Source: a virus
Virus record (IMG/VR): IMGVR_UViG_3300035158_000483
Coordinates: 1 to 52,585 of that record
Reading direction: 5' to 3' (one strand)
DNA length: 52,585 nt
Position numbers and translations under genes: made by a program. This document shows positions 7,228-36,778 of this stretch, piece after piece. The notes under the pieces were generated by a model, which had not been told where the DNA came from, made no database searches, and was given only the letters and a program-made list of their open reading frames with translations. Within the stretch, counting starts at the first letter, position 1; each line of letters starts with the position of its first letter.

Positions 7228-7631
7228 ACCGCTACGAGCTCCACTTCGGCCCAAAAGACGGCATTGGTGCCGGATAGCATCGGGGATCGGTTCTCAAACT
7301 TCAAGTCCCCAACGAATACCACGTTGTGTGTCTTGCTGTCGTCCGTCTCGGTCAGCGTGAGCACGTTGTTGGGCGGGTTTCCGAGACGGAAGATCGCCTC
7401 CAGATCGGCCTTGGTGCCATAGCTGCCGCCATCCGGATCGGTCTCGTAGACCTTCAGCAGATACTTGAAGCGGTCAAGGACCGGCGCCGATTGCACATCA
7501 ATATGGCCAGTGACCGTCACCCTCACCGTGCTCTTCTTCTCGATGATCGGTCTGTGGCCCTGAGACAGGACCCGGAAGTGCTTCGGGTCTTTGGTCGGTG
7601 CGTCTAGTGTGATGTAGCCGTTGATCGCCAT
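7224..7631 (-). CDS. Small minor tail protein
   Basis: 135 residues, directly behind the tape measure: its ATG overlaps the tape measure TAA (TAATG), and its own TGA overlaps the next ATG. The sequence is all-beta in character (TVRVTVTGHIDVQS, NVVFVGDLKFENR, AVFWAEVELVAV), compatible with the tube-like fold of distal-tail or tail-completion proteins. One copy of the 13-bp TTCCG-CGGAA palindrome lies inside the gene at 7379 in a frame that gives FRLGN rather than SVTE. Role inferred from position. Confidence 0.6.
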   Translation of the reverse strand: MAINGYITLDAPTKDPKHFRVLSQGHRPIIEKKSTVRVTVTGHIDVQSAPVLDRFKYLLKVYETDPDGGSYGTKADLEAIFRLGNPPNNVLTLTETDDSKTHNVVFVGDLKFENRSPMLSGTNAVFWAEVELVAV

Positions 7632-10600
7632 TAGTAGGGTAGCCCCCCTTCACGCGGTGGCAGACCACTTGGCGTGTTGTAGTTGTCCAGGATCGCCCCG
7701 GCCTCTTGCAGCAATTCCACGAGTCCGTCGATGATCTCGTTGTTGAAGTCGGTGGCCATCGTCGCGATAGAGCGTTGGATATTGGTGTAGCGTTCTTGGA
7801 GTTCGCGCATCGCTTCAGCGTGCGCCGCGGACAAACCAGCCTGCCGCTCTTGGAACTCCAACTGCTCCGCCTGGTGCTCGCGCTGCAGGGTCGTGATCTT
7901 CTGCTGATGCTCGTACTCCTCCTGATAGGCCGCCTTCCGCTCCTCTAGCTGCTTCATTCGCAGGGCGTGGGACTCCTGCGCCTGGGAGACACGTAGGGCG
8001 TGCGACTCCTTGGCGTGCTCCTCGCGCATATCGAACTGCTCCAGGCGCAGTTCGTGGAGTTTCTGGTTACGCTCCTTGAGCTCCTCCAGGTTCTCCTTCT
8101 TGCGCTCGAAGTCCTCTTCTTCCCACTCACGGCGTTGCTCCATTCGATCTTTCTCTTCCTGCAGATCCGTGGTCTCCCACTTGCGCCGTACGACGTCGCG
8201 CTCCCGTTGCCGCATCAGCCGCTCACGCTGGTAGCCAGTGGCCCGACGAATGTTCTCGTCGTAGTCCTCCATTCTCCAACCGAACTCGATGGCGGAGCGC
8301 CCGAATTGCTGGTGCCAGTCCTGCATCTTCCAGCCGTAGACCGTCGCGGCGCGCTCGCGCTGTCTTTCCAGATCCTCGAACTTGTCCTCCATATCCTCTT
8401 GTTGGAAGCCCCAACGGGCCATATACATTCGCCTGCTGAGGCCCGTGCTCTCCAGGGTGTGTCGCAAGCTCAGGCCAGCGCTTGCCATCGTGTGCGCCAG
8501 CGACATATTGGCTTGCTGTGCTGAGAAGTTGAAGGCTCCAGTGTAGGCCCTGCCGCTGATCGGGCTGATACCGCCCATCTGCTGCACGTAGTTGAATCGC
8601 CTGCTCACGTCTTGCAGGCCCCACAGACTGTCGGGGCCTGGAGCGGTGGGCGTACCGCCGCCCCAAAGATATCGTCTCTGAGCAGCGATACGCTCCATCT
8701 GCAGGCCGGCTTGGGCCTGGGAATAGCGCGTGTTCTCAGCCGTCATCGCATCCTGGAGGCCCCACAGCGTGTTCATCCCCCAACCGCCGACGTAGTTGCC
8801 GTTGGCTCGTGCCTGAGTCAGCCGCTGCTGCGTCGCCCGTAGGGCTGATCCCCAAGAGGAGATGCTCATACCGCCGAATCCGGGCGTCGGGGCAATCTGG
8901 CCGATCATCCCGATGGCGTTGTTGAGGGCTGTGCCGGAGACGACGGGCAAGCCGCCACTCGCAGCTGCCTCGAAGATCTCGGTACGCCCGACACCCAGGC
9001 GAGTGGCCGCACCCCACCGGCCGGCGATCTCCATACGGCGATTGACCTCAGCCATCTCCAAGCCCTTCATTTGCGAGTAGGCTTTCTGCCAGTCCGTGCC
9101 CAAGTAGCCCATCTGCCCCGCTTGCTGTGACCACCACCGAGGCCCTCGGCCAGTGATTGCGCCGGACTGGATCACGTCGCTTTCCAAGATTTCTCTTGGC
9201 GTCATCTGCCCCACAGCGCCAGGCGTCATCTCGTAATACTCACCGATCATCTCGGCTGCTCGCTCTGCTGTGACACCCTCGGGACGATAGGTCTTCGCAG
9301 CGTACTGGATAGAAGCTGCTCGTTCAGCGGCTGTCATACCTTGGAACCTGCCAGCCTTCAGACGCCTTCCCTTGTAGTACAGCCTGGTGCCTTCGGGGGT
9401 CAGACCGAGTACGTTGGGGTCCTGCATCATAGCGACACGCGGGTCATTCGGCGTCCCCCGGCCAACCTCTGTCGGTACGTCGGCCATTATCGCCCCACCG
9501 ATCCCGCCCATCCCGCCAGCCGTAGCACTCATATGCGTGAGGTTGTAGAACCACCCTCTGTCCTCTCTGGTGCCTGCGACCTGCGGTTGTCTGTAGTATT
9601 TCTCCGTGGCCACGCCGCGCTTGCCCTGAGCGAGATTGAGGGCCATCTGCTCCTGGTCGCCGCGCATACTCTTGATGTAGCTGTAGAGCCCATAGCCACC
9701 AGCGGCCAGCGCAACGGGGAGCCCAACGCCGGTGAAGGAGCCGCCGAGCATCGTGGCCAGCGTGCCAGCTACCGCCCCTGTGCCGAGGGCAGGGAGGCCA
9801 ACGCCAGCCGCCGCACCGCCTGTCTGAGTCGTTAGGAACTGTTGAATGTCACCGTAGGCGCGATAGGCAGCCCTGCCCATTGCAACCTGTCCAGCTTTCT
9901 TCTGAGCTTGCGCCTCCATCAGCCCCATTCCGATCCCGCTTACGGGAGCCGCGCTTACGGGCATCGTGGCCGCGGCCGCGCCCATCATCGTCTGTGCGCT
10001 CTCAGCCGCAACGGGGATATTGCCCATCGCGACGCCACCGGTCATTCCCCATAGCCGGCGCATCATCATCAGCCGCCAACCAGAGGTCAACTGCCCCATC
10101 ACCCTATCCACGCCCTTCATCGGCCCCTCGGCGCCGAAGAACGAGGTCTTGAACCACTCGCCAATGCCCCCGCTAGGAGCTGCCCCTTCCAGGCTACGCG
10201 CCCAGTCATCCTCGCTGGCCTGGATCATCTGCCGGTAGGCGTCCGAGCCTTTCAGCCGCATAGCCGCTGTCGCAAGGCCCACGTCGCCGGTCTCCTGCGC
10301 CTGCTCGAGGGCGCTTCCGGTCACGCTCTGGACCTCCCTGGCCAGGCGCTCTGTCCATTGCTTCTGCGCGTCGCTCAGCTCCTGGGTGTTCTTCACAGCA
10401 GGCCCGACCTGCTTGCCCCAGTCCTCCAGATGATCGGCAAGCGTGCGCATACGCTTGTTGAGAAGCTTCGTGTTGTCGACAACGCCATCCTCTGCTACGC
10501 CGACACCGGCTTCCTCGATCGCAGGTATCATCTGTGCAAGCGACGTCTGCCCGATACCGTGGACGCTGGTGACACCCTTCTTGGTAGCGAATCCAGACGC

Positions 10601-13600
10601 GCCGGGCAGTCTCGCAATCTCCCGCCTGCGCTTGACGATGCGCCCGGCCAGCTTAGAGCCGACTCCCTTGACCTGCTGTAGTTGCTCTGCGGTGGCCGTG
10701 TTCAGGAAGCCGAATCCTGTTGTGGTCAATTCGGGTTCAGGTGGAACGACGCTCTCGAAACGCTGTTGCATCAGATCGGCCTGCGCCGTCGCGGCCATCA
10801 TCGGGATGGCCGAGCCGAGCTCGCCCTCCATATAGGTCTTGGCCGTGGTCACGTACTGTTGCATCTCCTGGTTGTTCGATTCGCCAAACCGTGTTGCGCC
10901 CTTCTGTGCGTGACCGAGCCAGGTGGCCATCTGGTTGGCCATCTGCCGGTAACCTGGCGTGACCTCGCCTTTGTCCTGGGTGATGGCTTGAGAGGCTTCT
11001 AGGAACTGAGGCCCGTACATCTCCAAGCCCTCTACGGCGGTCTTGAACTTGCTCTTCGACACGCCGAAGGCCCACTCCATCGTGTCCTTTAGGTCCTGAC
11101 CGAGCTTGGCCATCCCTTGTGGCACTGAAGGCCCTTCGTCTGGAGGGCTGCCAGGGGGGCCACCTGGAGGAGGGGGTGGGGCGGCCGGTGGAGCACCGGT
11201 CGTCCTTCTTGGCGGTCCTTGGCTCCCTGCGCCTCCAGCAATCGGCTCTGAGGGAAGTGGAGCTTCGCCGCTCTCCATAAACGCCTGCACGCTGTCATAG
11301 CCCTTCTGCTTGGCCATCCGAGACAGCATCACGGTCCGCTGCATTGCCTGCTCACGCGGATCGCCCTGAGACCAGCCGCCGATGCTCCGCGACGTAACCT
11401 CGCCACCGGTGCCTGTGCCGCCCAGGCTGACGCTGGATCCGGACATCATCCTCTCGACGTCCTCTTCGGGCATACCCATCTGACCGAGTATCTCACCAAA
11501 CAACCCGGGTGCTGCGTCCATCCCGGCCTGTACGCGAGCGGCCAGGGGGTCTGCGTCAGCACGCTTGGACAGTGAGGATCGCCAAGCCTTCGCCCTGGAC
11601 CTGATCGTGTTGAAGAGCTTGCGTTGGTACGGGTCAAGGTTGGAGACTATTTCGTTGACGACGTCTTCCTGCCCGCGACCGAGGGCCATCGCTGTGGCCG
11701 TGAGACCGATCGGGGTCTCTGTCTCCCACTCGCCGGTCAACCGAGCGCGTTGACGCGCCAGCTTGGCACGCTCGAAGTCATCCTCTGCACTGCGCCAACG
11801 CTTGACCAGCTCCTCAGCCTCTCCCCAGTTCCGTCTCGGAAACCCTAGCTTTGCGACCAACTTGGGGCTCAAGTGCTTGGCACTCATCAGCGCCGGCATA
11901 AACGCCTCCTGGATGCCGGCAGGACCAGCGGAGACGTTCAAGTTTGAGAAGTCTCCCTGGCCACCTGGGCCGCCCAATAGCTTGTCGAAGTAGGACGCGC
12001 CGCCCTTGTGCAAGGAGAGCGAGTTCAGCATCCCGACGACCTTCTGCAGCTCAGGCGGCAACTCCTTCGGCGTCTGTGTCTGGCCGTGAATCACTCCGAA
12101 GAACTTCTCGGCCTCTTCTCCGAGGCCCATCGAGCGAGCTACGTGCTCCACGTCCTCAAGGGAGGCGTACGTCGGGCCGATGTACTGTCGGAGTTTGTTC
12201 GTCCAGGCCATCGCAGACCCAACTGTCTCGGCGTCGAGCTCGTGAAGATTGCGGGGGTCCATCGCGGCCCTCAGCTCCTCCAGGTTGCGGAACTTGTGTC
12301 CCCTCGACAGATCCTGGCGCTGCATCTCTTCGACGGCGGTCTGCGCTTGCTTTGCGACGAAGCCTTCTGTTGCCCAGGGGATACCAGGCTCCCCACCAGG
12401 CGTCTGCTGGCCAGGGAGCTTGAGCCGGCCTTCTGGATCGACCTCGCCCATCATCAGGTTCCAGAACAGGTCCTCGTCAAAGTCGCGCCCTAGGGCCTCG
12501 GCTAGCTTGGGGTTGATGACCAGACCAGTACCCTCAGATAGCTGCATCCCGCGCTCTTTGGCGACTTCGGGGTGGATGACGTTGAACATACGGCTCAGGG
12601 GCCAGTCACCAGGCATCGGCTGTCCCATCACGATGGAACCGAGCTTCATCCCTTGTTTCCAACGATGCTCGAACTTGTACTCCCTGGTGCCCTCGATGTG
12701 CCGCTGCGATGGGTCCATCCCGTAGGCTCGCATCACGCGCTCAACCGGTGCTGTGATCTCCGTAGAGGCCAACGCAGAGCTGGAAAGCGCGGGACCGCCG
12801 AACGCTTTGGGGATTGGCGTGCCCAGGGCGCGTCTGAGGAACTTGCGGCTTTCAGCGAGCTTGGACTGTGCGCCGAGCGCCCCCTGTAGGGCTTCCCTAC
12901 GGGCCTTAGAGCCGACTTTCTCGGATAGGCCGAGGAGAGCCTTGCCATAGAGCTGCCCGTACGCCGTGGCCTCTTCTGTGGACAGGGAGCCGGACGCCAT
13001 AAAGCGCAGAGCGTGCGCCGGCGCGGCCAGTACGCCTTCCTCAGTAAGCAGCGGCTTCTGTCCCCACTTGGTCTGTGCCGCCTGTTGCATCACCGCACGC
13101 GCAAGCACGGCCTCTGTAGGCTCCTCACCCTCTTCACCAAGGGACATAGCGCGACCAGCCGCGACAGCTTCCTGGACCGCCTTGGGGTCAGGGGCGATAG
13201 CGTTCTTGGGATACCCGTGCGGGCCTCCGGAGATCGACGCTTTGATGATACCGCTGTACGCCTGCTTGAGGTCGTAGCCTTGCTTGCGAATCTCGCTGAA
13301 GTATTCAGCTACGCCAGGATGCTCAGCGAAGCGTTCCTTGGCAACGCGCTCCAGGCGCTGGACCTCGCGGAAGGGTAGGTGGGCAGGCTCTCGGAGCGCC
13401 CAACCGCGCCGGTACATCTGGAAGAACTTCCCCTTGAGGAAGCCCATCGGCTTCTTGCTCTCCAACCGGTAGTAGCCCTCTCCGATCTCAGTGCGGTCGA
13501 ACGTGTCCTCTGGAAACTGCCAGAGCTGAGACTTGTGGACACTGGGGATCGTGACCGGCTTCTCCGTGTAGAGGCCGCCCTCGCTCTCGGGACGCAGCTT

Positions 13601-15451
13601 CTCCTCGACGAAGGCGTTGTAGAGAGGCTCGCTGACATCTTTCCACGTCTTCTGTTTCATCCCCTCCATCGTGAGATCGTCGTACCCGCGCCGGCGCAGC
13701 GTGGACAGCATCTCGTTAGGGTGTGCCATCCAGTAGGAGTAGGCCAACTGTGTCGGCTCCTTGATCTGCGTCATCCCATAGCCCTTCTCGCCGTGGAAGG
13801 CCGAGGGGCTGCCGACGCCGCTCATAAACTTGCTCCAGAACGTCTTTGAGGACAGTCGGGCCGTCTCAGGGGATGCTCCTTGCTCCATCACAGCACGGAG
13901 CACGCGCCGATCCTCATACTCACCCTTGCGCTCGTTGTAGTAGCGAGCGTTGACGACGCTGTAGTCCTTGAGCTTCGCCCAGTCCCAGTTGCGGCCAAGG
14001 CCGATTTTCAACGGAGCCGCGCCCTCGAAAAGCTCAAGCTTCCCACTGTCACCGGTCCACTCCGTCCCGCGCTTGACGACCTTGGGTTCCATCCCTTCGG
14101 GGAGGGGGATATCGTAGGTGTGGGCGCGCCGTACGGAGCCGATCCAGCCCTGCGGCTGCATCTCTATACCCTCTGGCAGCCACTCGCCCAGGGAGATCAT
14201 CTGGTTGGTGATGACGCCACGGTTCCGGCGCATTGCTGTGGAGCCGAGGCGCAGCGGGGACTGTGCGGTGATGTTCTCTCCCGTCTCGGAGTAGTAGTCG
14301 AACATCTTGTAGACGCCCTGGAGCTGCGTGCGCTTGGCGATCTTGATCAGCCTCGAACGGTCCGAAGGGTCGTAGGGGGAGAGAATACTCTCGCCCTTGT
14401 GAGGTCCTGCCCACAGATCGGTGTAGACGCGGCTCGGCCACAAGCGGGATGCGCCTTGGCGCGTTACGTATCCTTCCGGCCAGTCCTCGGGGTCCATCCC
14501 CTCGACTGAGCCCTCGATGCCCAGGTCAGGTCCTGTCAGGCCGGTGCGGTAGCGGATCTGCTTCGCTGCTGGCAGGTACTTCCAGTGACTAGGCCCCTTC
14601 ATCGTGGCCACCACGCCGAGGCCGCCCTCTACGGGCCGGTAGTCAACCGGGGGCATTCCGCCGAACTCAGCGCCCAGGTTCTCCTTGAGGTAGGATGCGG
14701 CCTGGCCGGCGTTGGCACCTGCGAGATTAGCGCCGGCGAGGCGCTGCGAAAGCTCCTGTCTGGTGAGGCCCCATCCCATAAACGCACCGAGCATCTGCTC
14801 GTAGCCCTGTGTCCCAGGCTGTGCGGAAGGGTCGTAGGGGACTTTGCGGTGGACGTGAGCGCCTACTCTAGCGTTAGGGTCTGCAGACCGGACATTCTGC
14901 CGGAAACCGCTCAGGATACCGCTCTGCCGCTCGGCCTCTGCCTGGACCTGCTCAGGCGTCAGACCTCTGACACGTATGGAGCTAGGGGGTACAACCGATC
15001 TGTTGCGCTTGAGGATACGTCCAGCTCGGGACAGATTACCGCGTTGCAGGAAAGCCGTCGGATCTTCGGTCTGATAGCTCTCCGTGGGCGTAGCGGCCGG
15101 TTGCTGCAACCTGGTGGACTGGCCTCTACCGCTGTACACGCCGACGTCCAGAAACGTGGCCCACCGATCGGCGGCAGTCTTCTGTCGCTCGTGCTCGCGC
15201 ATCAGGTCCCGCTCGCGCAAGTCGAGCTCCATATCCAGTTCAGTTTCCGAGACGGAAGACGATGGGGCTGTGGCACGATCTAACGCGGCCTCGAAGGCCG
15301 TGACGCTCTCGCCCTCTTCTGGCGCGAAGTGGTGTCGAGCGCCTTGCGTGCGATCGTACTCTATTCCCTCTGGATCGTCGGGGTCATCGCCTTGGAAATG
15401 ACGGCCCCTGGCGTTCCAGAGCCAGTCGTCTTTTGAGTAGTCTCTCGTCAT
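7631..15451 (-). CDS. Tape measure protein with an RNA-polymerase-like N-terminal region
   Basis: 2606 residues, the longest gene, placed after the two chaperone frames as expected for a tape measure; its ATG overlaps the chaperone-extension TGA. Visible parts: an N-terminal region of about 1400 residues; a Pro/Gly-rich linker at about 1410-1450; a helix-hairpin-helix-like segment (KGVGSKLAGRIVKRR ... VHGIGQTSL) at about 1590-1655; hydrophobic segments near 1790-1990; a long charged coiled coil at about 2330-2565. Residues 943-994 contain GQPMPGDWPL followed by INPKLAEALGRDFDED, with Asp at 990, 992 and 994. This matches the NPxxxPGD...DxDGD pattern of two-barrel RNA polymerases. The tape-measure call is firm; the polymerase-like region is inference. 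Confidence 0.9.
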   Translation of the reverse strand: MTRDYSKDDWLWNARGRHFQGDDPDDPEGIEYDRTQGARHHFAPEEGESVTAFEAALDRATAPSSSVSETELDMELDLRERDLMREHERQKTAADRWATFLDVGVYSGRGQSTRLQQPAATPTESYQTEDPTAFLQRGNLSRAGRILKRNRSVVPPSSIRVRGLTPEQVQAEAERQSGILSGFRQNVRSADPNARVGAHVHRKVPYDPSAQPGTQGYEQMLGAFMGWGLTRQELSQRLAGANLAGANAGQAASYLKENLGAEFGGMPPVDYRPVEGGLGVVATMKGPSHWKYLPAAKQIRYRTGLTGPDLGIEGSVEGMDPEDWPEGYVTRQGASRLWPSRVYTDLWAGPHKGESILSPYDPSDRSRLIKIAKRTQLQGVYKMFDYYSETGENITAQSPLRLGSTAMRRNRGVITNQMISLGEWLPEGIEMQPQGWIGSVRRAHTYDIPLPEGMEPKVVKRGTEWTGDSGKLELFEGAAPLKIGLGRNWDWAKLKDYSVVNARYYNERKGEYEDRRVLRAVMEQGASPETARLSSKTFWSKFMSGVGSPSAFHGEKGYGMTQIKEPTQLAYSYWMAHPNEMLSTLRRRGYDDLTMEGMKQKTWKDVSEPLYNAFVEEKLRPESEGGLYTEKPVTIPSVHKSQLWQFPEDTFDRTEIGEGYYRLESKKPMGFLKGKFFQMYRRGWALREPAHLPFREVQRLERVAKERFAEHPGVAEYFSEIRKQGYDLKQAYSGIIKASISGGPHGYPKNAIAPDPKAVQEAVAAGRAMSLGEEGEEPTEAVLARAVMQQAAQTKWGQKPLLTEEGVLAAPAHALRFMASGSLSTEEATAYGQLYGKALLGLSEKVGSKARREALQGALGAQSKLAESRKFLRRALGTPIPKAFGGPALSSSALASTEITAPVERVMRAYGMDPSQRHIEGTREYKFEHRWKQGMKLGSIVMGQPMPGDWPLSRMFNVIHPEVAKERGMQLSEGTGLVINPKLAEALGRDFDEDLFWNLMMGEVDPEGRLKLPGQQTPGGEPGIPWATEGFVAKQAQTAVEEMQRQDLSRGHKFRNLEELRAAMDPRNLHELDAETVGSAMAWTNKLRQYIGPTYASLEDVEHVARSMGLGEEAEKFFGVIHGQTQTPKELPPELQKVVGMLNSLSLHKGGASYFDKLLGGPGGQGDFSNLNVSAGPAGIQEAFMPALMSAKHLSPKLVAKLGFPRRNWGEAEELVKRWRSAEDDFERAKLARQRARLTGEWETETPIGLTATAMALGRGQEDVVNEIVSNLDPYQRKLFNTIRSRAKAWRSSLSKRADADPLAARVQAGMDAAPGLFGEILGQMGMPEEDVERMMSGSSVSLGGTGTGGEVTSRSIGGWSQGDPREQAMQRTVMLSRMAKQKGYDSVQAFMESGEAPLPSEPIAGGAGSQGPPRRTTGAPPAAPPPPPGGPPGSPPDEGPSVPQGMAKLGQDLKDTMEWAFGVSKSKFKTAVEGLEMYGPQFLEASQAITQDKGEVTPGYRQMANQMATWLGHAQKGATRFGESNNQEMQQYVTTAKTYMEGELGSAIPMMAATAQADLMQQRFESVVPPEPELTTTGFGFLNTATAEQLQQVKGVGSKLAGRIVKRRREIARLPGASGFATKKGVTSVHGIGQTSLAQMIPAIEEAGVGVAEDGVVDNTKLLNKRMRTLADHLEDWGKQVGPAVKNTQELSDAQKQWTERLAREVQSVTGSALEQAQETGDVGLATAAMRLKGSDAYRQMIQASEDDWARSLEGAAPSGGIGEWFKTSFFGAEGPMKGVDRVMGQLTSGWRLMMMRRLWGMTGGVAMGNIPVAAESAQTMMGAAAATMPVSAAPVSGIGMGLMEAQAQKKAGQVAMGRAAYRAYGDIQQFLTTQTGGAAAGVGLPALGTGAVAGTLATMLGGSFTGVGLPVALAAGGYGLYSYIKSMRGDQEQMALNLAQGKRGVATEKYYRQPQVAGTREDRGWFYNLTHMSATAGGMGGIGGAIMADVPTEVGRGTPNDPRVAMMQDPNVLGLTPEGTRLYYKGRRLKAGRFQGMTAAERAASIQYAAKTYRPEGVTAERAAEMIGEYYEMTPGAVGQMTPREILESDVIQSGAITGRGPRWWSQQAGQMGYLGTDWQKAYSQMKGLEMAEVNRRMEIAGRWGAATRLGVGRTEIFEAAASGGLPVVSGTALNNAIGMIGQIAPTPGFGGMSISSWGSALRATQQRLTQARANGNYVGGWGMNTLWGLQDAMTAENTRYSQAQAGLQMERIAAQRRYLWGGGTPTAPGPDSLWGLQDVSRRFNYVQQMGGISPISGRAYTGAFNFSAQQANMSLAHTMASAGLSLRHTLESTGLSRRMYMARWGFQQEDMEDKFEDLERQRERAATVYGWKMQDWHQQFGRSAIEFGWRMEDYDENIRRATGYQRERLMRQRERDVVRRKWETTDLQEEKDRMEQRREWEEEDFERKKENLEELKERNQKLHELRLEQFDMREEHAKESHALRVSQAQESHALRMKQLEERKAAYQEEYEHQQKITTLQREHQAEQLEFQERQAGLSAAHAEAMRELQERYTNIQRSIATMATDFNNEIIDGLVELLQEAGAILDNYNTPSGLPPREGGLPY

Positions 15452-15780
15452 TCTCGGACCTCGGCAAGCTGATTAGTTGCCTGCAAACTCTCGAATCTGT
15501 TGGCTCCCTCTTCCGCCGCCCACACGTCCTGCATATAACCTGCTGGCTGATCAATCCAGCCACCTTCTCGTGGAAGCCCCCACTTCTCGCACTTCTTGAG
15601 CTCCCGATACGCCGGCGGCACGTCCGGCAGGTTGGGTTCTACGTAGATCGTCCTGTGCTGCTGTGCGTCGAAATGCTCCTGAATGGCCGTAAGGTAGTTG
15701 AAAACCTCGTCCGCAATCGCTGCTCTACGGCCTTCAGGCGTCACCCATACCTCGTCTGTGTCGGGGTCTCTAATAACCCC
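15448..15780 (-). CDS. Tail assembly chaperone, frameshift extension (gpT-like)
   Basis: The frame is open from before the stop of the shorter chaperone to a TGA overlapping the tape measure ATG. It has no good start of its own (first in-frame GTG at 15744, no ribosome site). Read as an extension it begins VIRDPDTDEVWVTPEGRRAAIADEV after the shift and adds about 110 residues. A gene in this place, in another frame and lacking a start, is the standard gpG/gpGT layout. The frame is +1 (equivalently -2) relative to the first gene, not the usual -1. Confidence 0.7.
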   Translation of the reverse strand, partial: GVIRDPDTDEVWVTPEGRRAAIADEVFNYLTAIQEHFDAQQHRTIYVEPNLPDVPPAYRELKKCEKWGLPREGGWIDQPAGYMQDVWAAEEGANRFESLQATNQLAEVRE

Positions 15781-16174
15781 GAAACGGATACTGCCAGTCC
15801 GGATTGACTTCGCGGACTAGCATCACCCATTCCTTGATCAGTGAGTCGGGCGGGTTGATCTCTTGAATGCGACTCTTGAACTCCTCGAGGGGCACGTCGT
15901 CCTTCTCGAACAACGGCTGGCCCCCAACGGTCAGGTTCGTCCCTGCGAACGTCAGGGCGATCTCCTCCAACCAGAGCGTGCGGTTGTTCAGTGTGGTATC
16001 AATGCGCAGCGTCCCATCCGGCTCGTACGCCTCGGAGCGTGCTTTGAGGAGCTCGGCTCGGTGGGCGTTCTCGACAAATCCGGCCGGCTCGATGCGTACC
16101 CAGGTGTCACCGTCTTCGTCCCACTGTTCCAGGTACTTGGTCTGAGGCTCTACCGGCTGAATATCTCTAGGCAT
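15770..16174 (-). CDS. Tail assembly chaperone (gpG-like)
   Basis: 134 residues with AAGGAG ahead of the ATG. Acidic, no membrane segment, ends ...PDWQYPFRGY at a TAG. Sits between the tail tube gene and the tape measure. The protein and its frameshifted longer form are expected to coat the tape measure during tail assembly. Assignment rests on size, order and the overlapping second frame. Confidence 0.7.
   Translation of the reverse strand: MPRDIQPVEPQTKYLEQWDEDGDTWVRIEPAGFVENAHRAELLKARSEAYEPDGTLRIDTTLNNRTLWLEEIALTFAGTNLTVGGQPLFEKDDVPLEEFKSRIQEINPPDSLIKEWVMLVREVNPDWQYPFRGY
15772..15786 (-). promoter_or_regulatory. Candidate programmed frameshift site, GGGGTTA
   Basis: On the minus strand the last codons of the chaperone read TTT CGG GGT TAT TAG. 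A -2 slip of the Gly codon GGT onto GGG, or a +1 shift, moves ribosomes into the extension frame just before the stop. Phage Mu is known to use a -2 shift at a GGGG-containing heptamer in the same pair of genes. Direction and exact slip base cannot be fixed from sequence alone. Confidence 0.5.
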
Positions 16175-16193
16175 CGTGTTCTCCTTGTGATAT

Positions 16194-16217
16194 GAGGGGA
16201 GGCGAGTCCCTCCCCTC
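16194..16217 (-). terminator. GC-rich hairpin after the tail tube gene
   Basis: Nine-base stem GAGGGGAGG / CCTCCCCTC with a six-base loop, just downstream of the tail tube stop and upstream of the chaperone ribosome site. No U-run follows, so it may be a processing, stability or partial termination element that sets tube-to-chaperone ratios. Confidence 0.5.
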
Positions 16218-16231
16218 TAACTCGCGTCAGG

Positions 16232-17299
16232 CTACGGGGTCGGCCAGGCGTATGATTCTTGATCGTTGACGACCGTGATCTGGAACGGGTCCCCGCTCGC
16301 TGGCTCCTTCAGCACGCCGACCATCGGACAGTAGAGGATGCTGTTGCCCTGCAGTCGGAGCTGCCCGTCTACGCTCCAGTCAACTTCGGGGGCCGTGATC
16401 TCAATGCTGTAAGGCGTGCTCGTACCCGAGATGTTGTTGGGCGATTCCAGCTTCGCCGCGACGTTGGTGGAGTACACCGAAGGCGTCCACTCCGTGCCGT
16501 CAACGGCGCCGGTGTAGACCTGTTGCCACAGATCGGGATCGGCCCACTTGTAGATGAATCGGAACGCGAGATCGCGCTCGATGGCGACGAGATCGTCGGG
16601 GTGGTAGCTCCCAATGACCATCTCGTCCTGTAGCCGCGCAGCACTCAGCTGATTCATCAGCGTGATCTCAACCGACCTCGCTTCCAGCGCTTCAGCCGAA
16701 AAGTCAGGCAGCTTGAAGTAGCCGCTGTTACCGGTCGGGATGCTCTGCGTGTCCTCGAAGGTGTTCTCGTAGGTCCACCCGGATGGGTTTTCCTCGAACG
16801 AAGGCTCGCGGCCCAACACGCCGACCTGACACGTCAGCGGTGCCATAGCCGCCATCGAAAAGACAGCTTGGGCCACCTTGCAGTCCTGCAGAATCTCCCC
16901 AATCGAGTCGCTGGCCGTAGCCCCAGGGATGAACTTGTGCATCGTCAGCCAGGGCAGGTAGGCGTGATCCGTGGACTTAGGCCGGAAGATATGCGTGTGA
17001 CAGCCAGCTTCCGGCGTGTCGCTGGCGGTCGATACGTCGCCGGTCATCGCGTACAGGAGCCAGCCGAAGACGTTCTTGATCCTGGGCTGGATCGTCGCTG
17101 TGCCGCCCACAAGCGAAGCGGTCTTGCGCTGACCGACATTGAACACGCTCCCACCAACCTCCGGTGCCCACCTCTCGGCTTGCTCAATCGCACCCAGGTT
17201 GATGTCGAGCGTCTTGTGTCGATAGAACGTGGTGGCCAGGGACTTCTTTGCAGTCTGTCCCCCATAGGCCAGCACGCCGTTTCTGGAAGAAACACTCAT
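16232..17299 (-). CDS. Major tail tube protein
   Basis: 355 residues; AAAGGAG lies nine bases before the ATG. Beta-rich with a conserved-looking block GCHTHIFRP...LPWLTMHKFIP and a C-terminal Ig-like or beta-sandwich stretch. Lies directly upstream of the chaperone pair and tape measure, the standard position for the tube protein. A strong ribosome site and the hairpin at its 3' end fit a highly expressed structural protein. A glycosyltransferase gene lies immediately upstream, so this protein is a possible glycosylation target (inference). Confidence 0.75.
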   Translation of the reverse strand: MSVSSRNGVLAYGGQTAKKSLATTFYRHKTLDINLGAIEQAERWAPEVGGSVFNVGQRKTASLVGGTATIQPRIKNVFGWLLYAMTGDVSTASDTPEAGCHTHIFRPKSTDHAYLPWLTMHKFIPGATASDSIGEILQDCKVAQAVFSMAAMAPLTCQVGVLGREPSFEENPSGWTYENTFEDTQSIPTGNSGYFKLPDFSAEALEARSVEITLMNQLSAARLQDEMVIGSYHPDDLVAIERDLAFRFIYKWADPDLWQQVYTGAVDGTEWTPSVYSTNVAAKLESPNNISGTSTPYSIEITAPEVDWSVDGQLRLQGNSILYCPMVGVLKEPASGDPFQITVVNDQESYAWPTP

Positions 17300-17312
17300 C
17301 TGAGACTCTCCT

Positions 17313-18377
17313 TTAGGTTAAGGCGCAGTAGGCGTCTAGCCATTTGCGCCAGTGTTTTTCAGTTGCTCGGTGTTCGATAACCCACTCGTGACCCTGCTTT
17401 TGAAGACGTCGACGCAAGCGCCAGTCCTCGATCAACTTGGCGATCTGTGCGTACCACTCGTCGCTGTCGTAGTGGTCCCTGACGAAAAGGGCGTTGTGAC
17501 GGTTGTTGCACACACGGCGATACACCTTGCAGTTCGTGACGACAGGCACCGCACCTCCGAAGCTTCCGTCACGGAGAGGCCGCTTTGAGGCCATATACTC
17601 CAAAGCCTTGATGCCAGACTTGCTCTTGTTGAAGCGATCATCCGGCTCCAAGGGGGCTAGGCCGATGTCGATCTGGCGGATCAAGGCGGGGTAGCTCTGG
17701 AAAGGCACTTTGGCACCGATCGTCAGGCGGGGCAGCTCCTTGAGATAGTCCGGCACGAAGCCGCCTATGAAGAAGCGCACGTTGGGATGGTCCTCTGCGA
17801 TCTTCCGCAGGGCAGGTCCGACTGGTCGCCAGTCGTCTGCGTGAGTATCTGTGCCGACAATCCCTACGGTGAGCGCGTCGTCCACACGGTGCTCGTCTGG
17901 AGCGAAGGGCTCCCACATCTCCGGTACAATCGTGTTGGGCAGGACAAAGACCTGCTCGTTGTACCGCTCCATCACATCGCGCAGGTAAGGCGTAGAGGCG
18001 GTGCCAGCCGTGCAACGCTCCAGCACGCTGGTCGCTATCCCCTCGCCGGTGACCTCTCTGTGCGAGTTGGTATAGTCGTCATCCCACTCACACACGACAG
18101 CCTTGCCGGCTTTCTGGAGCGTCGCGATGAACGTCTCGGCCTCGCGCTCGTGGCCAAGAGGGGCGATAACCCTGGCCAGCACGAAAACGTCATACGTGGC
18201 TGGGTCTAGGTGCCCCATCTGCGTGGCCCTGAATGCCCGATCAATCGGCATCCAATCAGCCTGATAGCCGTGCTCGCTCAGCTTCCGATACGGAAAGATG
18301 ATGCGATAGGCATCGCAGGCCGTTGGCCCGTTCTTGCGCTCGCCAGCGAACAGCCCCAGCACTCTAGGCTTCGTCAC
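17313..18377 (-). CDS. GT-B type glycosyltransferase
   Basis: 354 residues, GTG start (GGGAGG nine bases upstream), overlapping the 3' end of the preceding gene by 14 bases. Rossmann-like halves are visible. The C-terminal donor-site region DIGLAPLEPDD...KSKSGIKALEYMA is typical of GT-B enzymes that transfer sugars from nucleotide-sugars. It sits inside the head-tail module between connector and tail tube genes, suggesting glycosylation of a virion protein or of the host surface. Substrate unknown. Family confident, role inferred. Confidence 0.75.
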   Translation of the reverse strand: MTKPRVLGLFAGERKNGPTACDAYRIIFPYRKLSEHGYQADWMPIDRAFRATQMGHLDPATYDVFVLARVIAPLGHEREAETFIATLQKAGKAVVCEWDDDYTNSHREVTGEGIATSVLERCTAGTASTPYLRDVMERYNEQVFVLPNTIVPEMWEPFAPDEHRVDDALTVGIVGTDTHADDWRPVGPALRKIAEDHPNVRFFIGGFVPDYLKELPRLTIGAKVPFQSYPALIRQIDIGLAPLEPDDRFNKSKSGIKALEYMASKRPLRDGSFGGAVPVVTNCKVYRRVCNNRHNALFVRDHYDSDEWYAQIAKLIEDWRLRRRLQKQGHEWVIEHRATEKHWRKWLDAYCALT

Positions 18378-19643: not shown

Positions 19644-20706
19644 CTAGCCACCGGTCGAAGCGCGGCCCTTGAAGCGGACGTTGCCAGCGGAGTAGACAAC
19701 CTCGAAGCGATCCGGGAAGAAAGGCTGGTACTTGATGTACGCATCCCAGGAGAACCGCTTCATCGCCATCGCGTCATCGACCGTGGGCGGGGCGTGTAGG
19801 GTAGGGGGCTGAGTGACGCCAGCCACAATGCCCTTCGCGCCACCCAAGCAGACCGTCGCGTGGACATGCCGGCCGAGCGTGACGTAACCATAGATGCCGG
19901 TGTCAACCTCGGTGTCATAGTCCTTCTGCAGCGGCCGGTCGAAGCTCAAGCGGTCGTCGTCCGTGTTCACGGAGACCAGACGCCGGTTGGTCAGCGAGCC
20001 TTCGGTGTAATCCACACCGTCGCTCACGCCGTAGTCGCTGGTCTTGGTCTTGTGAATCGTGACGATCTCGCCCTCGTGGCCGGAGAACGCGCTCGCCTGC
20101 CCAGTGTCGAGCTGGACGTAGCGGGTGTTGGCCGGCTGACCAGGCGTAATCGTGTCGTCCACCTTCGCAGCAGCGCCCGTACCTGCGGGGGCCGAGGAGA
20201 CGATATCGGCTGTCTGCGTCACAGGACCGCAGTTGTAGAGCGTGCAGCGCGTGGTCTGGATGAACCGCGTGGCCTTGAGGCGACCAACCTCGATATCCAT
20301 CATCAGCTTGCCGAAGTCGCCAGCGTACTCAGCCGCTTCCTTGAACTCCCCACCGGCCTCGTTGCGGATGTCGTAGAGGACACCAGGGGACGTGATTGCG
20401 ATCATATCCCCGGTCGGGCCGGTTGGGTTGTTGGCGAACGGAGCCTCGCGATAGCTCATACCGAGCCAAATCTGATCCAACAGGCTCGGTTCGAAGAGGT
20501 CACCGTTGCCGAGATCGTTGAAACCATCGTTGGAGGCGTCCCCGCAGTAGAGCTCGTAGGGACCCTCGAGGAAGGCGTTGCGAGCCAGGATGTCCATATG
20601 ATCGGCAATGGACCGGGCCATCAGGTCCCGAATGATGGGAATCAGCCCCGCACGACCGCTGTTGCGCCGCCAGTAGTTAACATAATCATCATCGCTTGTG
20701 TTACTA
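19644..20706 (-). CDS. Major capsid protein, exon 2
   Basis: About 354 codons forming the C-terminal three quarters of the major capsid protein. The open frame has no proper start: an in-frame TGA lies just above a GTG inside the intron. Joining exon 1 at 20972 to 20706 gives ...APQGAMAL|SNTSDDDYVNYWRRNSGRAG... and a 470-residue protein with the helix and beta pattern of HK97-fold capsid proteins. Located between scaffold and adaptor. The join is inferred from reading frame and intron structure and may be off by a few bases. Confidence 0.75.
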
Positions 20707-20971
20707 CGCACTCAGTGCGCGGCTAGGTCATTTCTGCCTAGCTCTCACGCTCTCACGTGAGGCCGGACTATATCTTCATCCAATCAGGATGCCGGGTACT
20801 CTAAGTCGGTTCTCCGATAGTCTCTGAACCTTCCCCTGGTCTAGGGGCTCGGCTGCTGATTGCCCAATCCCTGAGATTCTCAAGCCTTCGCGCTCACCGT
20901 TTCCAGTCATCGCTGTGGCTCTCAAGGCTCTAAGGGGGTTCCAGCAATTCACCCGATTGCCCTCTTACGCT
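20707..20971 (-). ncRNA. Group I self-splicing intron in the major capsid gene (IA-like, no endonuclease)
   Basis: Minus-strand core elements, 5' to 3': GAATTGCTGG near 20950 (P element), ATCAGCAGCC at 20851-20860 (Q), GGTTCAGAGACTA around 20818-20830 (R), GAAGATATAGTCC near 20766-20778 (S). R and S pair as P7. A TCGG-AGAA-CCGA hairpin lies between P7 and P3', as in subgroup IA. CGGGT/ACCCG forms P3 and CATCC/GGATG forms P8. Three small hairpins follow before the 3' exon. P1 can form from GCCCT in the exon and AGGGC in the intron. No open frame is present. Unspliced RNA would stop four codons past the junction. Confidence 0.85.
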
Positions 20972-22214: not shown

Positions 22215-22266
22215 TCGAACAGCGGGGACTCGAACCCCACAGCGGCCCCCGACGGGCTACTGCTCG
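22215..22266 (-). ncRNA. tRNA-like mini-structure at the portal 3' end
   Basis: The minus strand carries an exact T-arm (GGGG-TTCGAGT-CCCC with the GGTTCGANTCC box). The following seven bases CTGTTCG pair with CGAGCAG upstream (one G.U) as an acceptor stem, and a GCCC/GGGC hairpin replaces the D and anticodon arms. The portal TAG lies inside. No CCA is encoded and there is no room for a full tRNA. Could act as a structural element, a processing signal or a tRNA mimic, or be a relic. Confidence 0.4.
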
Positions 22267-23867
22267 TTACGCTTGCTATCGTCCTTGTTCTTCTTTTCCG
22301 TCGCGGAAGGCGATGCTTCCGCTTCCATCTTCGTCTGCCACTTCTTGAAGTCCTGGATGCGCTCCTTCTCCAGCTCCGGATCGTCTATGCCACCGAGCAG
22401 CTCGAAGGCTCGCTCAGGGCTCATACGGTCCACGGTCGAGAGCTGGACGACCTCGTCCACGATCTCCTGCCGGTCCTGCGGCATAATGGGCGCGAACTCC
22501 GTGATGATGTCGTGTCTCAGGTGCTCCTTTGTCAGGTCGGCCACACCCTTGCTGATGGCCATCATCGCCAGCTTCTCACCAAAGCTCTGGAAGCCGCTCA
22601 TACTGTGAACCCTGGCCGTCCTGGTCTTGGCTATGAGCTGGTACATTCGGAAGGCCAGCGTCAGCGCCGATCTCTGAGAGCCTTCGTCAATGCCCCATAC
22701 CACGCGGGGCGTGAAGGAGAGGTTCCGCACCAGGTCCTGAAGAATCTCCACGAAGTCGTTGGTGCCGGCGGGGAGATCGGGCGGATCCACCACACCGAGC
22801 TCCGGATCCACGTGGTTGGGGACGCCGATGCCCAGGTTGAGTATCACGCTTGGATCGCGCCGTAATCGCTCAGGAGCCTTCGCCATACCACGCACCCACA
22901 TCTGACGATGGGCATTCTCGGCCACCGTATCCCCGATGTTGGCGAGCTGTAGGTTGATCTCGTCCTGCAGGCCCATTACGGCCTCTATGGGGCAGATCCC
23001 GTAGAACGAGCCTGCAGGAGCACGCCAGGTTGGGATGTACTCAACGGGCAGGAAAGGGCGGTCGGTGATCGGGTCTCTGAACGGGTTAGGGCCGCGCATC
23101 GGCTCGCGGTTGTAAGGAGATCGGGCCAGCTCGTTGTCAATCGTGACTTCGTAACCGCGCTCCGTCCAGTGCTCGACGTACAGCGCCGTGTTGCCGCCTT
23201 TCTCCTCCAGATCGACGTTGTACTTGAGCTCAGCCTCGCGACGGTTGATCTGTCGAGCGAACGTGTACTCCAAGATGCGGTGCGGGTTAGATGAATCCCA
23301 AACTGGGAAGAACTCAGCAGGGGGGATGGCCTCGATGACGATGTTGGTATCGGAGTGAGCGCCCGGATCGAATCGCGCCCGATAGACACACCCGCCGAAA
23401 ATCTGCATCGTGCTCGCCTGCGTCACGATCAAGCCGTCGCGGTCGTTCTCGATGAATAGCTGGTTGATGAAGTCCTGGAGCTCGTCGGCTCGCTCCTTAG
23501 CGGTGTCTGTGCTGTCCTTTGCTTTCACGCGCCAGTTGAGCACGTTGTCATCGTCGTACTCGCCCAAGAGAGCCGCGTGCAGCATAAAGACAATGGGTTG
23601 CACCAGGTTGATCTGGAGCGGGTAGAGCAGCGGCGGCTCGCCATCGTCGGTCTTGACGTCGGCTTTGCGCTCTAGGACCTTGCCAGAGAAGTAGTCCCAC
23701 GCAGCCCGGTACTTGGTTGACTGGGCTGCCCACTTGCTGTTCGGGTAGGCACCAGGATCGCTCAACCCCATACTGGATGCTGAGGATACCGACACATCGC
23801 TGGTATCGCTGATCTGCTCTGGTGTGAGCGTTGGCCCTGAGTTCAGAAGGTCACTGAGAAATGTCAT
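22257..23867 (-). CDS. Portal protein
   Basis: 536 residues from the ATG at 23867. A longer GTG start would lie inside a terminator hairpin, so it was not used. Features of portals: the Trp-rich clip/wing region, LQDEINLQLANIGDTVAENAHRQ stem helix, the SGFQSFGEKLAMMA helix and a charged Lys/Glu/Asn-rich C-terminus. Lies between terminase and scaffold. The ATG has no visible ribosome site, which is odd for a structural gene. The C-terminal ASPSATEK is encoded by a variant TTCCGTCGCGGAA palindrome (22296). Confidence 0.85.
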   Translation of the reverse strand: MTFLSDLLNSGPTLTPEQISDTSDVSVSSASSMGLSDPGAYPNSKWAAQSTKYRAAWDYFSGKVLERKADVKTDDGEPPLLYPLQINLVQPIVFMLHAALLGEYDDDNVLNWRVKAKDSTDTAKERADELQDFINQLFIENDRDGLIVTQASTMQIFGGCVYRARFDPGAHSDTNIVIEAIPPAEFFPVWDSSNPHRILEYTFARQINRREAELKYNVDLEEKGGNTALYVEHWTERGYEVTIDNELARSPYNREPMRGPNPFRDPITDRPFLPVEYIPTWRAPAGSFYGICPIEAVMGLQDEINLQLANIGDTVAENAHRQMWVRGMAKAPERLRRDPSVILNLGIGVPNHVDPELGVVDPPDLPAGTNDFVEILQDLVRNLSFTPRVVWGIDEGSQRSALTLAFRMYQLIAKTRTARVHSMSGFQSFGEKLAMMAISKGVADLTKEHLRHDIITEFAPIMPQDRQEIVDEVVQLSTVDRMSPERAFELLGGIDDPELEKERIQDFKKWQTKMEAEASPSATEKKNKDDSKRNEQ

Positions 23868-23878
23868 CGTTAGAATGC

Positions 23879-23917
23879 AAAAAGCCCCAGTCCGTGGAAG
23901 CACCACGGTCTGAGGCT
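23879..23917 (-). terminator. Rho-independent terminator upstream of the portal gene
   Basis: Minus strand: AGCCTCAG-ACCGTGG-TGCTT-CCACGG-ACTGGGGCT followed by TTTTT. A long GC-rich stem with a U-run, only about 12 bases before the portal ATG. It would end a short transcript from the internal promoter at 24146-24174, or attenuate transcription entering the head genes. Confidence 0.8.
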
Positions 23918-24208: not shown

Positions 24209-24464
24209 CTCTGCCCCCCGACCTTCTCCAGTCATAGCCGTCGCTGATCTCCAAGACGCTATGCGCTGAAGCGCGTGTGAAAAGTGCTTTGAATTTCTTG
24301 GCCAAGAAATGCCTTCCGCTTTTGCAGAGCCAGTCGCGTAGGGTAGGGCGGCGGAGTTCGACGCCGTTGACCAGCAAGTAGACACCGTCCTGCGTCTCAA
24401 GCCACTCGACATCTTCCGTCACGGAAAGCTCCTCCTCGGTGTAACTGGCTATTTCACGCATCAT
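24192..24464 (-). CDS. Hypothetical small protein after the large terminase
   Basis: 90 residues. The first ATG (24464) overlaps the terminase TGA (ATGA), with AAGGAG just upstream; the second ATG has better spacing. Acidic N-terminus, then a basic C-terminal half (RRPTLRDWLCKSGRHFLAKKFKALF). Contains a TTCCGTCACGGAA copy (24414) that encodes LSVTE. No recognised domain. Confidence 0.5.
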   Translation of the reverse strand: MMREIASYTEEELSVTEDVEWLETQDGVYLLVNGVELRRPTLRDWLCKSGRHFLAKKFKALFTRASAHSVLEISDGYDWRRSGGRDGWRR

Positions 24465-26365
24465 CTTCTCCTTACGTGCAGAGAGCGGCTCCTGTGGAGC
24501 GAATGGCGCATCGAGGGCCTTCTGTCACGGCTCATAGCCAGCAGAGGGATCGTCCAGTGATTCGATTGCTCCCCGGCCATCTCGCCGGTGAAGATGCGCC
24601 GGCGCATCCAACCGCCTGCGATCTGCAGGGCGCTTACGATGTCCTGGGTGAGCTTCTTGTCAGGGAAGGCGTATTGAGCGAGCTGCCGGCGCAGGCCCCG
24701 GATGTAGGGATACTTCAGCAGGCCACGCTGCATAATGAGCTTGATCGCGTTGTGGTAGGCCTGCTTCTTGCCGGTCAGGTTCATCCCCTCGACCAGGATG
24801 CCTTCGCCCACATCGGAGAAGGCGAGCTCGTCCATCGCCTTCTGCGAGCCGGTCGCATCGAACGCGGCGCCGACCGGTTGATAGAGGTTCATCGCGGTCT
24901 TGAAGCTCGACAGGAAGGGGATGTAGGAGCCGCCTCCGTACACCCAGTCGAACATACGGAGCGTTGCCGGATGCTCAGGGAAGCCGGTGATGTCCAGGAC
25001 CAGGACCACGCCGGCGTTGCGTCTAGGCGGTTCGCCCTGGCCAGGATCTCCGACGACCAGATAATCCCGGCCACGGTCAGGCGGCATCATAAGCTGGTGG
25101 CATCCTGCAAGGCTCCTCTCCTCATAAGCGAAGCCGGCCTTACCTTCCTTTATGCCCTGGTGACACAGTCGATTCAGGCTCCGGTCCTCGCACTGCTCGA
25201 TGACAGCACGCGCAAACTCCTCACACGTCCCCATCGGCCTCGCGCCTTGCATCTCGATGGCGCGCAGCTCGGGTGGCAGGGCCTCGCGCATTAGCCTCAC
25301 GTCCCGCTTGGTCAGGGACTCGTTCATACTGGTGGTGATCGTCATCGACAGGTACGTCTCGGGGTCCTTCTTGGCCTTGTCGTAACGCTCCCATAGCCAG
25401 GGGACGTCCGTCGCGGTGGTGATCACCGACAGGCGGCCGAGGCGCGGCCGGTTCGTGGGTCGCTCGCCACGTAGGCGCGTGCGCATAATCTGGACCGTGC
25501 TCGGTGAGTCGATGAAGCCGAACTCGTCACCGTTCATCCAGTCGCCCTCCCAGCCGCGCAGCTTCTCGATCTCGTCAGCCGCGCTCATAAACTCCAGCTT
25601 GCTGTTGTTGTAGAGCTCGATGGTGGGGTAGGGGCGTCGCACAGCACGCTTGATGAACCGTTGATACCGGTTGCCGTCCGCACGCTCGATGATGGCCTGG
25701 TACATCAGCTTGGCCTGCCAGAACGTGGGAGCCACGTTCATAAACTTGAAGTAAGGCGTGAGCGCAGCCCAGGTAGCAGCAGAAAAGGCGACCATAGAGG
25801 TCTTGCCGGAGTTGTGATGGACAAGACCGTGCGCCACATAGTTGTTGTAGATGGGGACGTGAAAGTCGTAGAACTCAGATTGGTCGAGAGCCTCGATAGA
25901 GCTGATGGGGTCCGGCCCGCCTGTGGAGCAGAGAGGCGATCCGACGTGAAGGTCCTCAAGACGGCGATAACCGTTAGGCGTGAGGAATGCGTGCCGGCCA
26001 GTGACCTCGATCTCGCGGCCGCTGGCCATTGTGACGCGGTAGATTTCCTCTACGCCCTTGACGTAGGGTTCACCCGCTTGCGCAGGGGTGAACCCATCTC
26101 CGGTCCACGCAAGGACCGTGTGCGTTCCCTCGATCTCTTCTACGGGCGTCTCTGTGTCTGAGACAGGATCGTAGATCAACGTCCCAGGCGCGAGACAGCC
26201 AACGCCGCCGATAATCGTCACCTCGGGCTGCGACGACACGTGGAGGGGCGTCTGATAGTCGTGAAATGCCCATCCACCGAAGTAGTAGTCGGTGAAGTAG
26301 GAAGGATTCTCCGTGGCCGCCTTCCTGAATATGGCCTTATCGTCCGTGGTCAGCCGGTAGGCCAC
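24461..26365 (-). CDS. terL: Terminase large subunit (intein-containing precursor)
   Basis: 634-residue precursor, 505 after removal of the intein at residues 57-185. Start is a GTG abutting the TAG of the small gene upstream. Walker A is GGVG|SGKTS, split by the intein; Walker B acidic pair is WMNGDE (D280, E281). The RNase H-like nuclease shows D440 (LVVGDPGQG), D503 (AAFDATG) and D575 (LTQDIVSAL). It should package DNA into proheads using ATP and cut genome ends. The putative small subunit lies 16 kb away, which is unusual. Confidence 0.92.
   Translation of the reverse strand: MAYRLTTDDKAIFRKAATENPSYFTDYYFGGWAFHDYQTPLHVSSQPEVTIIGGVGCLAPGTLIYDPVSDTETPVEEIEGTHTVLAWTGDGFTPAQAGEPYVKGVEEIYRVTMASGREIEVTGRHAFLTPNGYRRLEDLHVGSPLCSTGGPDPISSIEALDQSEFYDFHVPIYNNYVAHGLVHHNSGKTSMVAFSAATWAALTPYFKFMNVAPTFWQAKLMYQAIIERADGNRYQRFIKRAVRRPYPTIELYNNSKLEFMSAADEIEKLRGWEGDWMNGDEFGFIDSPSTVQIMRTRLRGERPTNRPRLGRLSVITTATDVPWLWERYDKAKKDPETYLSMTITTSMNESLTKRDVRLMREALPPELRAIEMQGARPMGTCEEFARAVIEQCEDRSLNRLCHQGIKEGKAGFAYEERSLAGCHQLMMPPDRGRDYLVVGDPGQGEPPRRNAGVVLVLDITGFPEHPATLRMFDWVYGGGSYIPFLSSFKTAMNLYQPVGAAFDATGSQKAMDELAFSDVGEGILVEGMNLTGKKQAYHNAIKLIMQRGLLKYPYIRGLRRQLAQYAFPDKKLTQDIVSALQIAGGWMRRRIFTGEMAGEQSNHWTIPLLAMSRDRRPSMRHSLHRSRSLHVRRR
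25811..26197 (-). mobile_element. Mini-intein inserted in the terminase Walker A motif
   Basis: 129 residues from C57 (CLAPGTLIYDP) to N185 (YVAHGLVHHN), followed by Ser as +1 residue. Splicing block A (Cys start), block B (GREIEVTGRHAFLT), block F (EFYDFHVPIYNNYVAHG) and block G (HHN|S) are all present. No homing endonuclease domain fits in this length. Removal restores GGVGSGKTS. The terminase ATPase should be inactive until the intein splices. Confidence 0.93.
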
Positions 26366-32205: not shown

Positions 32206-32284
32206 ACTGTACGAAAGTACAAGCACGACTTGACAAACGTTCAGTAGATTGTATAATGGAGCGCACACTGAACGAACGTTCAAA
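32206..32284 (+). promoter_or_regulatory. Rightward promoter with three operators
   Basis: TTGACA (32230-32235), 16-base spacer, TATAAT (32252-32257). Operators: ACTGTACGAAAGTACAAG (32206-32223), ACTTGACAAACGTTCAGT (32228-32245, covering the -35) and ACTGAACGAACGTTCAAA (32267-32284, at the start of transcription). The densest control site in the window; drives the zinc-ribbon gene cluster. Confidence 0.85.
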
Positions 32285-35626: not shown

Positions 35627-36778
35627 ATGTCTGACGATAGGACACTGATCTGGGAACTCTCTCACTGGCAGAAGCGCCGCTTGCCGGATATCCAGAAGGA
35701 GCTGGCTGAGCTGTTGGCGCTCAAGCCTGAGTTTGCTACCGGCAAGAAGCCCTTCCCTGGGATTCCGTACGTTCCCTATGACTGGGCTGATGTCAAGCAC
35801 GACGAAGATCGCAAGCACACGTCCGAGCCGCACCGTTACATAGAGACTGAACACGGTCGCGTCTACCTCTACAACTTCCGCGACGGCGGCCTCACTCGGT
35901 ACGAGGGCTCGTACCGCTACTTCCCCCTGCTGGTGCCGCGCACCAAACAGGGTTGGAAGATGCAGATCCCGCAAGAGGGCTACCTCGAATACGACGTGAT
36001 GTCGGGAGTCACGACGGTCTACGACGAAGAGGACAACGAGCTGGCCGACCTGCAGCTGGAAACAGCGATGGACACCCGCTCCCCGGACACCCTGGCCGAT
36101 ATGGCCAAGGAGCAATTGGCCCTGAAGGGGATTCCGATATGGCCGGCCCAGATGTACGCAGTCAACACGGAGCACTTCCCCTGGCCGATCAAGAAGCGAC
36201 ACCTCGGCTACGCCTATATCAGCAACGACGAGGTGCGCGTCCCCCTGGTCGGTGTGGTCGCTGACCTGGAGACTGAGGAGTATATCTACGTGCATATGGT
36301 CGGTCACGAGTCGAACGTGCGCAGCATTCTGGCCACGTTCAACACGTCGCGTCGGAAGCATATCCGCACGAACACGAGCCTCGGCGGATTGTCCACCTAC
36401 TCCAGCCACAACTACCGCACCTATCACCGGCCAGTAGGAGACCGGCTGATGTCCACGATCCTGGTGGACAACCGGTGCCTGGAGCAGCAGGTGAACGACT
36501 ATGGCTACCTGTTGCGCCGGCGCGACGAAGCCGGCATAGACCCCGGTGAAGCTTTCGCCGCACGCCTCAACTCCGTGCTGACCGTCCCCGTGCTCCGTGA
36601 ATGGGGCGATATCCTTCTCAAAGAAGGCACCAACAGGAAGATCGCACGGCAGATTCACGCGGCCGGTGACGTGCCTGTGGCGTACGCTGTCACCCGCAGC
36701 GAGCGTTGGCAGAAGCTGATTCAGTCTCTACTCGACGAAGGCAAAATCTCAGTCCCCAGCCCCAAGGAGGTAAGCTAA
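35627..36778 (+). CDS. Hypothetical protein, 383 residues
   Basis: CCCCATAGGAGG leader, ATG at 35627. Soluble, rich in Tyr and Arg (HRYIETEHGRVYLYNFRDGGLTRYEGSYRYFPLL). No motif recognised. Its TAA overlaps the ATG of the methyltransferase-helicase gene, and AAGGAGG for that gene lies within its last codons, so the two are made together and may work together. Confidence 0.65.
   Translation: MSDDRTLIWELSHWQKRRLPDIQKELAELLALKPEFATGKKPFPGIPYVPYDWADVKHDEDRKHTSEPHRYIETEHGRVYLYNFRDGGLTRYEGSYRYFPLLVPRTKQGWKMQIPQEGYLEYDVMSGVTTVYDEEDNELADLQLETAMDTRSPDTLADMAKEQLALKGIPIWPAQMYAVNTEHFPWPIKKRHLGYAYISNDEVRVPLVGVVADLETEEYIYVHMVGHESNVRSILATFNTSRRKHIRTNTSLGGLSTYSSHNYRTYHRPVGDRLMSTILVDNRCLEQQVNDYGYLLRRRDEAGIDPGEAFAARLNSVLTVPVLREWGDILLKEGTNRKIARQIHAAGDVPVAYAVTRSERWQKLIQSLLDEGKISVPSPKEVS

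Follow-up and report, generated by a model that had tools for sequence, protein, structure and literature searches.

The closest described systems are tape measure proteins (TMPs) that carry a virion RNA polymerase. In Thermus phage P23-45, gp96 is such a fusion; its polymerase activity has been proven experimentally, and, in its authors' proposal, it works at the tape-measure pore during DNA entry (PMC10770324). The same arrangement is present in P74-26, G20c and TSP4 (PMC10770324). In the literature covered by our search, which lay outside most subscription papers and all preprints, TMP-fused RNA polymerases are reported for P23-45 and its close relatives only. YonO, QDE-1 and crAss-like gp66 are single-chain enzymes in which an R-x-P block is followed by DxDxD (PMC7824862).

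We analyzed an IMG/VR virus record of 52,585 bases (hereafter, the window), in which a long ORF (7631..15451, minus strand) sits in a siphophage structural cluster together with the genes for the tail tube (16232..17299, minus strand; PF18906, phrog_290), major capsid (19644-20711), portal (22257-23906) and terminase (24461-26365). The terminase large subunit is split by an intein, as it is in one relative (L007, 14305-16368). The ORF encodes 2606 aa and is located downstream of the tail tube gene, an order also seen in approximately 30 relatives; from its position and length, we infer that the product is the TMP. Its C-terminal region is common to the TMPs of relatives (residues 2277-2596, 7664..8623; BLASTP E-values to 9e-24; this and all further TMP features lie on the minus strand). 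A Gly/Pro-rich linker, recognized in the sequence at residues ~1401-1446 (11114..11251), lies between the front domain and the tape-measure part; the latter contains a helix-hairpin-helix motif (HHH_3, Pfam PF12836, E = 2.4e-8; residues 1583-1643, 10523..10705) and a hydrophobic segment.

The sequence-only reading had proposed that an RNA polymerase is built into this protein ahead of the linker. The blocks that it quoted, GQPMPGDW...INPKLAEALGRDFDED, were confirmed at residues 943-994 of the 2606-aa ORF (12470-12625). All three Asp of the DFDED motif (D990, D992 and D994; 12470..12484), which form a proposed magnesium-binding triad, are present, and 40 residues separate them from G943-Q-P945-M-P-G-D949. 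For the window TMP alone, one DxDxD in residues 600-1200 has a P of approximately 0.01 by shuffling, and from this one sequence a chance motif in an ordinary TMP would be possible.

Because the TMP matched no database family, relatives were sought via the terminase and tail-tube genes. Against Pfam, only the helix-hairpin-helix was matched and no polymerase family was found; comparisons with PHROGs, with PDB sequences (no polymerase), with a phage collection by tblastn, and viral and genome scans provided nothing useful. Relatives were gathered by the terminase and a terminase alignment, followed by tube alignments, and in each of them we read the long ORF located downstream of the tube gene. 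The portal and the single tube protein reached no relatives as search baits, a tblastn search with the tail tube returned only distant Tsukamurella phages, and a DNA pattern search for GRDFDEDLF found no match. Among the relatives are prophages of Anaerolineales (Chloroflexota) on contigs of 1.2-1.5 Mb (L068-L070), all three of which bear RNPASDP...FHPHHVQSQGGDNDSD-type sequences. In a further Anaerolineales prophage (L072, MAG H5_CFX7, 11295-17868), the front of the TMP is split over several short frames with the polymerase motif still visible; it appears to be a degraded copy that shares a contig with the intact one of L068. L071 may carry the motif (GYP...RDDDAD), but it obtained no significant support from the family HMM.

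We then counted DxDxD within aa 600-1200 of the 27 TMPs with enough sequence, including that of the window. The motif was present at approximately aa 724-1150 in 26 of these divergent proteins, compared with 1.4 expected from within-protein shuffles, and patterns of the same form built from seven other residues were present in 0-3 of the 27. The lone exception was L065, the weakest tube relative. In an alignment of 29 sequences with a pairwise identity of approximately 15%, D990, D992, D994 and P945 were invariant (29/29), and the triad was thus kept in every alignable homologue. It is this conservation, rather than the single-protein P of approximately 0.01, that provides the strong evidence for the motif at the sequence level. 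The counts of 26/27 and 29/29 refute a chance origin, to which we assign practically no probability.

The residues that separate the Asp differ widely among members (DFDED, DYDAD, DNDAD, DWDLD, DDDKD, DMDSD, DVDGD, DLDRD, DIDLD, DTDAD and others). The first block reported in the sequence-only reading held in part: Pro945 was conserved, but its 'PGD' half was not, and the family element is R-x-P (here G943-Q-P945, 12617..12625). Two residues before the invariant Pro, Arg was found in 23 of the 29 sequences; the window and four relatives have Gly there, and one sequence has His. In addition, GxxY(N) and YQxxLD motifs are conserved 100-140 residues beyond the triad. The G-x-x-Y motif of the window (residues 1092-1095, 12167..12178; Gly in 28/29, an aromatic residue in 26/28) possibly lies beside a bridge helix.

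When the window was left out and an HMM was built from the remaining 28 sequences, it matched residues 719-1125 of the window TMP (12077..13297) with the motif in register (57.8 bits, E = 2.3e-18), whereas the best shuffled sequence reached 1.1 bits. L065 was not reported by this HMM, and gp96 was not significant. A separate profile of the Anaerolineales prophages matched the rest of the family over 539 columns (E = 2.5e-17). With this family core in front of the linker, the region that the sequence-only reading had set apart proved to be a separate domain.

We also examined the sequence link to known polymerases. The family HMM matched neither a polymerase nor gp96. Restricted to the barrel slice, a profile aligned in register both with gp96 of P23-45, TSP4 and stolb1 (E = 0.0038; range for gp96, 0.0038 to 0.058) and with rpoC from the Chloroflexota genomes and one further bin (E = 0.008). 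None of 100 full column shuffles reached the rpoC and gp96 scores, compared with 3 of 100 each for shuffles that kept DFDGD; therefore, the barrel bears a weak resemblance to rpoC and gp96 beyond the motif itself.

The fold was predicted for residues 410-1429 (11165..14224), which comprise the proposed RNA polymerase domain and its surroundings, from a 26-sequence alignment (A5) of the window and 25 homologues. The AlphaFold2 model had a mean pLDDT of 52, and approximately 50-83 in the barrel. All 50 VIA-align matches listed for this model were RNA polymerase beta' or its plastid equivalent, at Z scores of 6.3-6.8. A second model, of L033 (approximately 14% identical to the window), had a pLDDT of 75 and a pTM of 0.61, and 49 of the 50 VIA-align matches listed for it were RNA polymerase largest subunits, among them the enzymes of phages AR9 and phiKZ (Z 6.0). 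Z scores of 6-6.8 are middling according to the tool's own note (below 8), many of the rows repeat one fold, and VIA-align only re-ranks Foldseek candidates. Foldseek alone gave no significant match for either model in PDB and BFVD. Neither gp96 (8H2M/8H2N), QDE-1 nor crAss gp66 was among the VIA-align matches listed; YonO was also absent from the structural matches listed, and the window domain may be akin to YonO, QDE-1 and gp66 nonetheless.

The compact matches of the window model covered approximately 96 residues at 3.0-3.5 A, and in the alignment with E. coli beta' (model 469-585 with residues 346-464; 96 residues, 3.1 A) they delimit a proposed catalytic double-psi barrel (DPBB-A) at residues 878-994 (12470..12820). 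The aligned range stopped at model residue 585, which is D994, paired with residue 464 of E. coli, 743 of T. thermophilus and 539 of Mycobacterium, which we take to be the third catalytic Asp of each beta'. Some structural alignments extended past DPBB-A, where a bridge helix and trigger loop would be expected, to beta' residues ~1150, at a higher rmsd. With Z below 8 and no significant match by Foldseek alone, we accept the predicted DPBB-A fold around the triad with reservation, and in weighing these models we rely on the register of the Asp and on the agreement of the two predictions. In the models, then, the fold around the triad matches the catalytic barrel of beta', and neither this result nor the conservation of the triad refutes the sequence-only reading.

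These results also bear on the possibility that the domain is another metal-binding or nucleic-acid enzyme, or a calcium site, with an incidental DxDxD. The motif is also found in calcium loops and other enzymes, and the lack of a significant Foldseek match fits such a reading. However, R-x-P and DxDxD occur in a fixed order, the barrel profile is in register with rpoC and gp96, and a beta'-type barrel with the Asp in register was obtained in two models. On these grounds we regard a non-polymerase domain as very improbable; a calcium loop in particular was rejected on conservation and register.

A two-barrel polymerase would also possess a second barrel (DPBB-B). A K..K pair was found 454-499 residues ahead of the triad in ten members, and in the window it corresponds to K536 and K541 (13829..13846), which are candidates for the second-barrel lysines from their spacing. 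In an hhalign comparison of the candidate second barrel with rpoB, the K..K pair did not align. The proposal of a built-in RNA polymerase was supported for the catalytic barrel and triad, and the interpretation of the sequence-only reading as a whole is partly supported, with the second barrel, a place in the YonO/QDE-1 branch in particular and self-sufficient early transcription as its presumed parts.

Near-perfect sigma70 promoters, matching at 11-12 of 12 positions, were observed in the early region of the window (32228-32257, 40911-40966, 42622-42770 and 50166-50264), with TTGACA-16-TATAAT at 32230 and 50213. Several overlap a palindrome, ACTGAACGAACGTTCAGT, which is repeated and overlaps or adjoins these promoters; its copies look like phage repressor operators. 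An RDF-like gene is also found in the window. Together with the prophage relatives, these features suggest that the phage is temperate, and from the promoters the host RNA polymerase could serve its early genes. Approximately 16 copies of CTTCCG-N3-CGGAAG were also observed (including 30624, 31443, 34237, 35335, 40844, 41974, 44866, 47885, 50812 and 52297); several lie just past gene ends, and they are hairpin-like or operator-like, without a T run. Early genes are preceded by an extended ribosome-binding-site repeat, CCCCATAGGAGG, which exceeds a plain Shine-Dalgarno sequence (32343, 33440, 34831, 35596, 40966 and 47787). One early-region ORF (36706-40824) combines a DUF6094 methyltransferase, a helicase and DUF6573 in a fusion of 1372 aa. 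Two early genes finish, at 50827-50856 and 52351-52380, in an acidic tip before the stop (...DIPF/...DKIPF) that resembles the C-terminus of SSB proteins.

The host-type promoters, the Arg of R-x-P missing in the window and some relatives, and the candidate lysines without rpoB profile support are compatible with a degenerate, polymerase-derived domain, in which the barrel persists in a structural or DNA-guiding role within the TMP and no RNA is made. However, the three Asp are kept in 29/29 sequences, although the intervening residues and almost everything else change, a pattern that argues for selection on metal binding and on catalysis. We therefore consider a non-catalytic domain unlikely.

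These analyses support a conserved Asp triad, a catalytic-barrel fold that is in register with beta', fusion to the TMP, and the family's spread. We consider it probable that the N-terminal part of the TMP is a single-chain, DNA-dependent RNA polymerase of the two-barrel type, which would work as a virion RNA polymerase like gp96 of P23-45. By analogy, a gp96-like mechanism is the most likely one. The polymerase-bearing TMP would be packaged in the virion and housed in the tail tube, would be ejected into the cell envelope at the start of DNA entry, and would there transcribe the leading phage DNA while this emerges. The second barrel and RNA synthesis are presumed in this scheme, as is the choice of the phage's first genes as templates. 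The virion enzyme might serve only the genes that enter first, or it might help to draw the DNA in.

Since the same arrangement is found in approximately 30 very different phages and prophages, a device known so far from a few phages of hot springs is probably much more widespread. If the domain is active, TMP-polymerase fusions are common among uncultured siphophages and are present in Chloroflexota prophages. In that case, approximately 30 natural variants would be at hand to study the passage of an RNA polymerase through a tail tube, and they would bear on the coupling of transcription to genome entry and on the indispensable parts of a two-barrel polymerase. The approach also offers a route to annotating the otherwise featureless fronts, of 1000-1400 aa, of giant tail proteins. 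A bolder proposal, which we put forward tentatively and hold to be somewhat doubtful, is that a large, unrecognised clade of partly temperate siphophages, including the Chloroflexota prophages, carries polymerase-bearing TMPs as a rule, and that the origin or divergence of these TMPs is so old that their sequences have kept hardly any link to gp96 of the Thermus phages. The TMP would then be the phage's only RNA polymerase beside host-type early promoters, and would perhaps act mainly by drawing DNA in through transcription during entry.

Compared with the known systems, the window TMP shares with DPBB-A of beta'/Rpb1 the barrel fold, the Asp register and an NP/HP nine residues before DxDxD (INPKLAEALGRDFDED versus LHPLVCAAFNADFDGD); it differs in being a single chain inside a tail protein, in having Gly in place of the Arg of NRAP, and in a homology undetectable by Pfam. 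YonO, QDE-1 and crAss-like gp66 resemble the window domain as single chains with an R-x-P-type block followed by DxDxD, although they are not TMPs. P23-45 has a second polymerase, gp64, whereas a scan for DxDxD ORFs revealed none in three relatives of 83-91 kb or in the window, which may itself be a fragment. Prophage relatives and sigma70-type early promoters also distinguish the present phage from P23-45. Neither BLAST nor the family HMM linked the window TMP to gp96, the profile link being in register at E = 0.0038 to 0.058, and its triad is at 990 rather than 779, with a longer upstream part. Both proteins nevertheless carry a polymerase-like domain of similar place and size at the TMP N-terminus, with an R-x-P-type block followed by DxDxD (FRNP...DFDGD in gp96, the latter at 779-783). 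The window family is a variant of the gp96-type fusion that is both divergent and much more widespread.
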